Below are positions 17,277 through 20,428 of a stretch of 64,000 nt of DNA, piece after piece. Under the pieces are notes generated by a model. The model did not search any database. It had not been told where the DNA came from and worked only from the letters and a program-made list of their open reading frames with translations. The DNA is from Sutcliffiella horikoshii DSM 8719. GTDB taxonomy: Bacteria; Bacillota; Bacilli; Bacillales; Bacillaceae_I. The position numbers and the translations under genes were made by a program. The first letter of the stretch is position 1, and each line of letters begins with the position of its first letter. The stretch lies in the NCBI GenBank assembly GCA_001648575.1, contig LQXN01000064.1, positions 62,001 through 126,000 on the forward strand, written 5' to 3'.

Positions 17277-17365
17277 GATTTTGTCCCTCTTCTATTTTTC
17301 AATTCTTTTCATAAAAATAAAATAGTGTGTATTTCCCCCATTATTTCTAATGGAAGGTGATCGAG

Positions 17366-18550
17366 ATGACTGAAGATAAAATAGACAAACGTATCCCCCA
17401 GCCCATCAGAAGAGATGGTGCTGGAGCATTGGACCTTGGACCAAGGAATATACTGAGAGATATTCAAAATCCTGATCTAATCGTGCCACCGAAAACCGAT
17501 GCGGGTATCGTTCCAAATCTGCGCTTTTCCTTTTCAGATACTTCCATGATTTTAAAACATGGCGGATGGTCCAGGGAGATAACAGTCAGAGAGCTTCCCA
17601 TCGCCACCACTTTGGCTGGTGTAAACATGAGTCTTACCTCCGGTGGTGTCAGGGAACTCCATTGGCATAAAGAGGCCGAATGGTCTTATATGATTCTCGG
17701 CAGGGCTCGGATCACTGCTGTAGATCAGAACGGAAAGAATTTCATTGCTGATGTTGGCCCTGGCGACCTCTGGTATTTCCCACCGGGAATCCCGCATTCC
17801 ATACAAGGGTTGGAGCATTGTGAATTCTTGCTGGTTTTTGACTCTGGCGACTTTTCCGACTTAAGCACACTTTCGATTTCCGACTGGTTTGCCCATACCC
17901 CAAAGGAAGTGTTGTCTGCCAACTTCGGAGTTCCTGAGAGTACATTTGATGATCGGCCAAAAGGGCAGGTTTATATCTATCAAAGCGAGGTGCCTGGTTC
18001 TCTTGAAACACAGGCAGTCCAATCACCAAACGGAAAGGTTCCGCTTCCATTCAAATATGAAATGCTAAAACAACCCCCGCTTGAATTTTCAGGAGGTTCC
18101 GTTCGCATTGTCGATTCAACCGTGTTTAAAATATCCAAAACCGTCGCTGCCGCCCTCGTCGAACTGAAACCTGGCGGCATGCGGGAACTTCATTGGCACC
18201 CGAACAATGATGAGTGGCAATATTACCTTACAGGAAAAGCTCGCATGACCGTTTTTCTTGGGAACGGTACAGCCCGAACCTTTGATTACATGGCAGGTGA
18301 CGTCGGTTATGTCCCATTTGCAACTGGACATTACATTCAAAACACAGGCGATGATACGGTCTGGTTCCTCGAAATGTTCAAAAGTGACCGGTTTGAAGAC
18401 GTATCTCTTGCCCAGTGGATGGCACTTACACCTAGACAGCTGGTGGACAGCAATGTCAATCTCAGTTCTTCATTTACTAAGAACATACGAAAGGAAAAAG
18501 AACCTGTTGTAAAGTTCCCGCCTTATACGTATAAGCCGAAAAATAATTAA
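17366..18550 (+). CDS. oxdC: Oxalate decarboxylase-family bicupin
   Basis: The 394-residue protein has two cupin domains, each with a Mn site. Site 1 is [11 protein letters not shown] with distal His in PPGIPHS; site 2 is [12 protein letters not shown] with distal His in FATGHYIQN and a Glu in VWFLEMF. These match Bacillus OxdC, which converts oxalate to formate and CO2, usually under acid stress. The active-site lid differs: it reads [11 protein letters not shown] where OxdC has SENST, so the catalytic Glu of the lid is replaced by Asp and the Asn by Leu. Activity may be altered. The ATG at 17366 follows ggaaggtg; a GTG nine bases earlier is less likely. It is single-gene. Confidence 0.88.
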
Positions 18551-18568: not shown

Positions 18569-19012
18569 TTAATGCAAACGGGGCTCTTTCTTACTTGTAT
18601 ACCTTAAGGATAAGGCAATAAAAAGAACAAAGGCCGTAATCCCAAGCAAAATATATGGCAAAATATCCATCCAATGAAAAGGCGTTTCATTGAGGTACAC
18701 CGCTTTCAGCCAGATGCCTTCTTGCTCTTCGACTGCAATTGCATTACCAGAGTCCATTCCCTTAATAGCGTAATACTTCGTGCCCTTTTCATAATAATTG
18801 GACGCGTCCCCATAATAGGAACCAGTCCTATCATCAGCCATCCGTTTAACCCCACCGATTTTCTCACCTATATCGGAAGCATCCACCAATTCCTCTGTTA
18901 CTTCATACACTCCACCTTCCCATGCAACAAACTTATATGCCCAATCTAGCGCCTGAGCATTTAATGAAAAAAATGTGAAGCAAATTACAAACAATACCAG
19001 GCCCCTTTTCAT
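18569..19012 (-). CDS. Secreted/membrane protein of unknown function in a sigma-factor operon
   Basis: The 147-residue product has a signal peptide (residues 1-22, ending near NAQALD) and a C-terminal membrane helix (about 115-135) followed by a short basic tail. Most of the chain, including AYKFVAWEGGVYEVTEELVD and EKIGGVKRMADDRTGSYYGDASNYY, would face outside. I do not recognise the family. It lies 30 bp after the pseudo-signal peptidase gene on the same strand, so it is probably the third gene of the sigma-factor operon and a candidate sensor or effector of that system. Confidence 0.7.
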   Translation of the reverse strand: MKRGLVLFVICFTFFSLNAQALDWAYKFVAWEGGVYEVTEELVDASDIGEKIGGVKRMADDRTGSYYGDASNYYEKGTKYYAIKGMDSGNAIAVEEQEGIWLKAVYLNETPFHWMDILPYILLGITAFVLFIALSLRYTSKKEPRLH

Positions 19013-19042
19013 CCTTCTATCCCCCGTCTATAATCTCTCCTA

Positions 19043-19798
19043 TTACTTCCACTTCCGGTAGCCTAAAACCTTCCCGTTTATATTTTCAATCGGCACCGCT
19101 CCGAAATCCCTGCTATCAAAGCTTCTCCACCAGGCGTCCCCCAAAAGAAAAACATGATCCGCAGGGATGATGTACTCTTTAGTATCATATTCTTTTGCAT
19201 CCTCAAACAAAGGACGATTATAAACATTATCCCGCCCTCTTCCATAAAATGCATCCAGCTTTTTGTTATCTATATAAACCTGTGCGTCTTTCAAGTAAAT
19301 CGTTTCTCCTGGCAGCCCCACAATTCTTGAAATACTTTTTGGTTCATTGTTCATAGTTGGATTGGTTCTTAGTTTTTCAGGATACGTGAAATACACAACT
19401 TCTCCGCGGGTAATTTCATTCAGTTCATAATAATTCGGATCGATCACAAGCTGATCTTTATAGAAATGGTGATCTCCCCTATCCATGGCATCACTAATCC
19501 ATTCATATAACATCATGTCATCCTCATACACAACTCTTTCAATATCTGGGGAAGTCAGTGGGTCGGTGATGACAGAAGAGGCGGGTTCAAAAGGATTTCC
19601 AACAATAAGTGCGACGATCAATAAGGAAGCGCAAAGCGACATAACTATACCAAAAGAAAAAATGACCGGTACCCGTTTTGAGGTTTCTTGTTTTATATTT
19701 TGGTATACCGCAAGTTTACGACTTTCGGAAAATGATGCATGTTCAAACACAGTTTGATCCATTTTTTCCCGAAGATATTTTAACTCTTGATCAATCAT
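19043..19798 (-). CDS. Membrane protein with degenerate signal-peptidase I (S26) domain; candidate anti-sigma factor
   Basis: The 251-residue protein has a 40-residue charged cytoplasmic N-terminus, a membrane helix (about 45-67) and an outer domain with clear S26 boxes: TRGEVVYFTYP, RIVGLPGETIYLKD and LLGDAWWRSFDSRDFGAV. The expected catalytic Ser is missing: the box normally reading GDSM reads SDAM. The general-base Lys, which should precede the Arg of RIVGLPGE, is Ser. So the fold seems kept and the protease lost. The gene overlaps the upstream ECF sigma gene by eight bases. Position and topology fit an anti-sigma factor; this role is inferred. Confidence 0.75.
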   Translation of the reverse strand: MIDQELKYLREKMDQTVFEHASFSESRKLAVYQNIKQETSKRVPVIFSFGIVMSLCASLLIVALIVGNPFEPASSVITDPLTSPDIERVVYEDDMMLYEWISDAMDRGDHHFYKDQLVIDPNYYELNEITRGEVVYFTYPEKLRTNPTMNNEPKSISRIVGLPGETIYLKDAQVYIDNKKLDAFYGRGRDNVYNRPLFEDAKEYDTKEYIIPADHVFLLGDAWWRSFDSRDFGAVPIENINGKVLGYRKWK

Positions 19799-20354
19799 TT
19801 CCTTTACCCCCTTCCATATAACGCATCCTCAATAACTCTTTTCCTCTTGATAGTCTAGTCTTGACGGTACTGAGGTTGAGTTGGAGAAAACTACTGATGT
19901 CCTTCATACTGAGTTCCTCATAATAAAAGAGGAACACGACTTCTCTATATTTTAAGGGCAGGGCCAACACATGATCAGCCAAATCATTTTGTTGCTCTTT
20001 TTCTAGTAGCGCATGCTCAGGAGTGATTTTTGGATCCGCAATCACACTTCCGAACATTTCAGAGAGTTGTACTCTTCTGTAGTTCCAGCTCTTTAAGTAA
20101 TCCTTGCAATTATTGATCGCTATCCTATACAGATATGTCTTTACACTGGACTCACCGCGAAAGCTGTCGAGATTTTTGAAATATGATACAAATACCTCCT
20201 GGGAAATATCTTCAGCTACATTAAAATCCTTCACATAGGAATATGCCAGTTTAACGATACTGCTCCCGTACTGGTTCATTACACTTTCCAGGTGTCTTTC
20301 TTTATGGTTGAATACATGCATTGTTTCTTCCAAGGCTGACTTCACCCCTCCCAT
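19791..20354 (-). CDS. ECF-type sigma factor
   Basis: The 187-residue protein has sigma region 2 (SIVKLAYSYVKDFNVAEDISQEVFVSYFKNLDSFRG, then VKTYLYRIAINNCKDYLKSW) and region 4 (LALPLKYREVVFLFYYEELSMKDISSFLQLNLSTVKTRLSRGKELL). It directs RNA polymerase to extracytoplasmic-stress promoters. The start is uncertain: the ATG at 20354 has no ribosome site, while a TTG at 20333 lies 13 bases after gggagggg and an ATG at 20321 after ggaag. The gene overlaps the downstream membrane gene, as sigma/anti-sigma pairs usually do. The subgroup was not assigned and the inducing signal is unknown. Confidence 0.88.
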   Translation of the reverse strand: MGGVKSALEETMHVFNHKERHLESVMNQYGSSIVKLAYSYVKDFNVAEDISQEVFVSYFKNLDSFRGESSVKTYLYRIAINNCKDYLKSWNYRRVQLSEMFGSVIADPKITPEHALLEKEQQNDLADHVLALPLKYREVVFLFYYEELSMKDISSFLQLNLSTVKTRLSRGKELLRMRYMEGGKGND

Positions 20355-20428
20355 TCTTTTTATCTATAGCGTTAGACGACGATACACTTTAGAAAGTTTG
20401 GAAAATCTTTCATTTTATTTTATCAAAA

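Follow-up and report, generated by a model that had tools for sequence, protein, structure and literature searches.

A putative ECF sigma/anti-sigma pair with a signal-peptidase-like outer domain lacking catalytic residues in Sutcliffiella horikoshii

The stretch of Sutcliffiella horikoshii DNA analysed here (64 kb, referred to as the window) carries three open reading frames on the minus strand, encoding an ECF sigma factor, a membrane protein and the product of a third gene, in the places given for them in the preliminary description (Table 1). The sigma factor reading frame contains both Pfam Sigma70 domains (r2 at 4.3e-14 and r4_2 at 2.5e-13) and passes the NCBIfam sigma C model PRK09415 with 208.7 bits against a cut-off of 198. 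The next gene overlaps it by 8 bases, and its product matches Peptidase_S26 (PF10502) at 7e-24, the match spanning only positions 41-163 of the 168 in the profile. According to hydropathy and charges, which define the topology used here, this protein has a single helix with the N-terminus inside and a domain on the outside, and no signal-peptidase cleavage site has been seen by eye after the helix of the window protein. It had been described from the sequence as a one-helix membrane protein with an outer S26 domain whose gene overlaps that of the sigma factor, and this description is borne out. A sigma-adjacent gene, a single helix with an inner N-terminus and an outer domain make up the layout of a membrane anti-sigma factor. 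A Sutcliffiella horikoshii relative of the protein reaches 75% in the best segment. The third gene begins 30 bases further on and is probably co-transcribed with the pair. A gene for an oxalate decarboxylase-type bicupin (17357-18550) lies convergent to the operon.

Table 1 Features of the sigma/pseudo-S26 locus in window coordinates
Feature	Position	Strand	Basis
ECF promoter-like site CCAAACTTTC-N13-CGTCTA, directly upstream of sigma gene	20373..20401	(-)	Group-A upstream sequences read
ECF sigma factor, 187 aa, SigC-type	19791..20354	(-)	Pfam Sigma70_r2/r4_2; NCBIfam PRK09415
Pseudo-signal-peptidase membrane protein, 251 aa, putative anti-sigma factor	19043..19798	(-)	PF10502, sigma overlap, family alignments
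N-terminal cytoplasmic module, residues 1-42	19673..19798	(-)	PRK09416 match and HMM of LstR-type N-termini
Single transmembrane helix, residues 49-67, Lys/Arg before it	19598..19654	(-)	Hydropathy scan; charges from sequence
Outer pseudo-S26 domain, residues 75-246	19061..19576	(-)	PF10502 match; profile-profile comparison with active-type enzymes; PDB signal peptidases
SDAM motif, residues 102-105	19484..19495	(-)	Met105 invariant in family; box B equivalence uncertain
Ser157, at general-base Lys position	19328..19330	(-)	Family alignments, profile comparisons
Third gene, 147 aa, hydrophobic N-terminus and C-terminal helix	18569..19012	(-)	Open reading frame; homologue searches

The family of the outer domain was aligned as 37 sequences, the window protein included, some of them closely related to each other. 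The position of the general-base lysine (157) is occupied by Ser in 20 sequences, Ala in nine, Thr in four, Ile in two and Asn and Gly in one each, with Lys or His in none, and the adjacent Arg158 is invariant. In the window protein box D, R-I-V-G-L-P-G-E, is intact and preceded by Ser157 in place of the lysine of active enzymes, so that the absence of the catalytic lysine, noticed before in this one protein, extends to all the family members aligned. Both catalytic residues are present in every row of an alignment of 15 active-type enzymes out of 17 fetched from the same and related genomes; the two that were left out (L003 and L029) both show Lys-Arg. Apart from Arg158, the residues Met105, Arg131, Gly132, Glu165, Leu181, Phe184, Tyr185, Asp221, Gly242 and Gly246 are identical in 37/37 sequences. 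Since the lysine has been lost throughout while these residues stay invariant, we conclude that the domain is maintained.

Its homology to signal peptidases is apparent from the profiles. All 19 A1 members match PF10502, PDB signal peptidases are matched by the family profile (best 5.5e-12), and a profile-profile comparison of 19 family members with the 15 active-type enzymes gave an E value of 1.3e-23 over residues 124-244. This local comparison aligns the two families from residue 124 onward only, and the placement of box B, which carries the nucleophile, is ambiguous in the pseudo-S26 family. One candidate is SDAM at residues 102-105; another comes from a forced global alignment, which has low confidence in this part and sets the active-site Ser-Met opposite Asp94-Met95 and not opposite Ala104-Met105. 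Residue 104 is Asn in 22 sequences, Ala in six, Ser in six, Thr in one and Gly in one, with one gap, and residue 94 is Asp in 14, Gly in nine, Glu in four and various others in the rest, including one Ser (n = 37 for both). The nucleophilic serine is missing from the window protein at both candidate positions; the loss proposed in the preliminary description thus stands on either placement, but its reading of SDAM as the counterpart of GDSM is not secure. Similarly, of the boxes C, D and E that were said to be kept, box E is present in the window protein, but its D-S-R part falls into a gap in 19-20 of the 37 family members. Predicted structures, computed from an alignment of just two sequences (the window protein and its relative in L036), had a mean pLDDT of 44.5 for the whole protein and 48.9 for the outer domain alone.

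Among 299 genomes from the order, the family profile found pseudo-S26 domains in 28, at 32 places (E ≤ 1e-20) and in 12 genera; genomic context was available for 31 of them (30 loci and the window), one place having no locus. An ECF sigma gene adjoins 12 of these 31 copies. Paired group A consists of the window and five congeners, group B of one among the 31 copies (five in four genomes when a further search is added), group C of one copy, and group D of four genomes of another genus. Its occurrence in further species and in a second genus marks the association as more than chance. The 19 copies with no adjacent sigma gene look like lipoproteins: a lipobox was detected in 16 of them by a crude script and in two more by eye (L179 and L205), and the last one, L191, is a broken frame. 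A second pseudo-S26 protein of the same genome (L005, 1417-2028 on C53) is lipoprotein-like and has no adjacent sigma gene. In one genome a pseudo-S26 protein is paired with an ECF sigma factor that is distant from the others, and about 3 kb further on lies a second sigma gene, whose membrane partner showed no S26 match (L117, 2760-4105 and 6512-7799). Relatives in virus contigs were not found among 38 pattern matches.

The sigma tree requires four changes in pairing, three of them forced by well-supported branches. In topology tests, for which both sigma trees were computed with one substitution model and no mixture option, a single sigma clade of groups A and B was rejected (AU p 0.0116), and a single clade of A, B and D was not (p 0.125). 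The tree of the outer domains (36 rows, 16 of them paired) needs five switches between the paired and unpaired state, four of them forced. Several origins of the pairing are favoured by these trees, if not proven, and the pseudo-S26 domain has probably moved repeatedly between paired and lipoprotein forms.

The N-terminal module links the membrane protein to other partners of SigC-type sigma factors. The NCBIfam model PRK09416, which is titled PadR family and which we take to be the model of LstR, matches residues 3-42 of the window protein at 3.2e-6. In the loci with the best SigC-type matches of the order (L037-L066) the gene after sigma encodes a protein of 133-151 residues with an LstR-type N-terminus in 30 cases out of 30, and an HMM built from the first 50 residues of these 30 proteins recognizes residues 5-40 of the window protein with 28.5 bits (1.2e-7). 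Among the loci L067-L126, selected by hand from SigC-type and pseudo-S26 matches, the HMM detects 33 of 54 sigma partners at E < 0.01, including two LstR-type and seven pseudo-S26 proteins; the threshold was missed by the other 21, among them four of the five group-B pseudo-S26 proteins and the one of group C. All matches below 0.01 outside the training loci were to sigma-adjacent proteins (1,779 reading frames, counted with repeats as some loci overlap). LstR-type proteins consist of the N-module followed by a PadR domain (3/3 tested), and PRK09416 covers two such proteins over their full length. Such proteins, with the same N-module as the membrane-bound sigma partners, occur in L037-L066, L106 and L107 (own genome, C3:357500-363500).

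The other helix-bearing sigma partners have one helix after the N-terminus, as judged by hydropathy, and then varied outer domains. In ten partners scanned these were LytR_cpsA_psr, MucB_RseB, DUF4030 twice (with DUF4179) and DUF4367 just under the cut-off; one more gave a weak DUF7507 match and four gave nothing. An N-module, a helix and a variable outer part look like the layout of an anti-sigma factor with an exchangeable sensor, and the common module of about 40 residues suggests an anti-sigma role for the window protein as well. The class II anti-sigma domain (CnrY type) is a short two-helix sigma-binding segment. The model of the window N-terminus has helices at residues 2-20 and 25-35, at a pLDDT under 50 there, and the module profile gave three weak matches to solved structures, with no anti-sigma chain among them.

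The promoter-like site of Table 1 is exact in five of the six group-A loci, directly upstream of sigma, and one base shorter in L112. Among the matches listed the pattern has one exact match in each of four genomes (G015 and G003 are not listed), and no wider regulon was found among those listed for the six genomes; with up to three mismatches the pattern was no commoner than its reversed control in five of six genomes, G006 giving 47 against 44. A looser site, AAC-N15..18-CGT, precedes 12 of 16 paired sigma genes versus 36 of 256 other reading frames, near-relatives being counted separately; this crude pattern misses the paired sigma factors of L115, L117, L202 and L203. ECF-like sites were absent from the 200 bases upstream of the 19 sigma-less pseudo-S26 copies and from the 150 bases upstream of 14 third-gene homologues. 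The operon is likely to be autoregulated by its own ECF sigma factor.

We propose that the locus encodes an autoregulated pair of an ECF sigma factor and an RsiV-like membrane anti-sigma factor, whose sensor is a dead signal peptidase that probably binds peptides, and we give this reading a probability of about 0.65. The preliminary description had proposed a dead S26 domain as the sensor half of an anti-sigma factor; the layout, the common N-module, the promoter-like site and the recurrence of the pair all speak for it at the level of sequence. As judged from the common module, the N-terminus would clamp sigma at the membrane. The outer pseudo-enzyme may have kept its peptide-binding cleft and, given its fold and the example of SipA, a dead S26 protein in which the cleft persists without Ser and Lys (PMC4049620), could bind an extracellular peptide. 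By the same analogy the ligand would be a peptide of some kind, and signal peptides, an antimicrobial peptide or another peptide may serve. Binding would expose the membrane protein to a site-1 protease, and an M50 protease of the RasP type would make the next cut and free the sigma factor; the genome encodes an M50 protease (235.9 bits). The freed sigma factor would then transcribe chiefly its own operon, the third gene included. Bacteria sense their surface through anti-sigma factors, many of which respond to signals that are unknown. If the proposal is correct, a dead protease serving as receptor would direct the search for the ligand towards extended peptides, and the common N-module would allow the anti-sigma partners of SigC-type sigma factors to be found by sequence.

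The pair might serve as a secretion-stress switch, as suggested in the preliminary description: once signal peptidase is saturated, signal peptides or stalled preproteins would be bound by the dead peptidase. The S26 homology, the lost catalytic residues and the persistent cleft of SipA would all suit such a function, but the family has conserved motifs of its own (SDxMDRG, LDxFYG and D-x-W-x-R) which differ from the active enzymes aligned, so that the specificity may have changed, and no secretion gene is found next to the operon among the neighbouring genes listed. We regard this function as unlikely.

Equally doubtful is a switch responding to antimicrobial peptides, in which a lantibiotic-like peptide is recognized by the pseudo-enzyme and the third gene confers protection. 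It would account for the position of the third gene directly behind the pair and for the similarity to the NisI/SpaI immunity model, seen in 13 of 14 homologues of the third gene at E ≤ 0.1, the best at 8e-6. The window protein itself, however, reaches 16.1 bits where the cut-off is 35, the model gave no match but this weak one when run against the whole genome (13.3 bits, E 0.34), and no NisI/SpaI structure was matched by the third-gene profile, so that the likeness is a lead only. Matches to the third-gene family occur in 94 of 299 genomes. Its distribution also speaks against the switch: the pair is missing within the flanks examined at 14 of its 20 best loci, the pairs of groups B, C and D showed no third gene next to them, and in G003 the third gene is interrupted by an in-frame stop next to a pair that is open.

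In three congeners (G002, G012 and G008) the third gene is kept and the sigma/pseudo-S26 pair is gone. The third gene adjoins the same aminopeptidase gene in all three, and its other neighbour is the bicupin in G002 and an acetyltransferase in G012 and G008. The intergenic region retains the end of the pseudo-S26 frame, as G-K-V-L-G-Y-R-K-W-K-stop in G002, as the last nine residues in G012 and in decayed form in G008; the upstream half of the promoter-like site is also retained in G002, and in G012 and G008 the similarity stops at about this site. Because this scar holds the pseudo-S26 frame end, the pair has been lost and the third gene kept in these three genomes, and the retained end rules out for them that the pair was newly inserted next to the third gene. 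The sequence upstream of the retained end differs among the three deletion scars (L159, L161 and L165). The suggestion that the third gene completes the system is therefore not supported, and on its sequence record we regard it as an independent, co-located gene family outside the sigma system.

The lipoprotein copies also raise the idea that the membrane protein shares only a transcript with sigma and does something separate, which would agree with the 19 of 31 copies that have no adjacent sigma gene; this is rather improbable, since in the sigma-linked copies the lipobox is replaced by a cytoplasmic N-terminus with a helix, and the group-A N-terminus is the same module that other sigma partners carry. 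An active enzyme that uses different catalytic residues, for which one might cite several invariant polar residues and the Ser found at position 102 in 24 of 37 sequences, is very improbable in view of Tyr, Leu, Thr, Ile or Asn at that position in 12 of 37, no invariant Ser at either box B candidate and no Lys or His at 157.

No described system that pairs a dead S26 sensor with an ECF sigma factor was found in a literature search covering few subscription papers, in agreement with the preliminary description, which knew of none. A near relative of the sigma/anti-sigma pair proposed here is the SigC-LstR-Lmo0421 operon of Listeria, alike in its sigma family (PRK09415) and in the N-module of the second gene, but the second gene product, LstR, has a PadR domain and is described as a repressor (PMC6624303). 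Deletion of lstR raises the operon about 140-fold in a fully SigC-dependent manner, and derepression is just as strong when the DNA-recognition part of LstR carries a triple mutation (PMC6624303). The SigC-dependent rise would fit an anti-sigma role; plain repression is favoured over binding of sigma by the module in Listeria because the recognition mutant equals the deletion. The same search, again with few subscription papers covered, yielded no paper dealing with lmo0422 together with anti-sigma. The common N-module nevertheless raises the question of how LstR works. A broader picture, in which dead signal peptidases are the order's extracellular peptide receptors, as lipoproteins or, several times, as outer halves of anti-sigma factors, and LstR is also a cytosolic anti-sigma factor acting through the common N-module with its PadR part as the sensor, is tentative and on balance unlikely.

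SipA of Streptococcus pyogenes resembles the outer domain in being an S26 fold without Ser and Lys for which partner binding has been proposed, but it is a pilus assembly factor, and no sigma partner is mentioned in the available part of its description (PMC4049620). The pseudo-S26 domain is homologous to type I signal peptidases in boxes C and D, to which group A adds box E; unlike them it has no Lys and, in the window, no Ser, and family-specific motifs have been added. RsiV and RsiP, which act on sigma V and sigma P of Bacillus, have a short cytoplasmic N-terminus, one helix and an outer sensor domain. The window protein shares with them the order of an ECF sigma gene followed by a one-helix protein with these parts, a layout read here from sequence; it differs in its S26-like outer domain, and its proteolysis is putative. 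RsiP and RsiV are reportedly cut by signal peptidase, so that they are substrates of this enzyme, whereas in the window protein the putative sensor is itself a signal-peptidase relative. Dead S26 proteins such as SipA are already known, as are anti-sigma factors of the membrane that carry an outer sensor, such as RsiV and RsiP; the combination of the two did not turn up in the literature searched.
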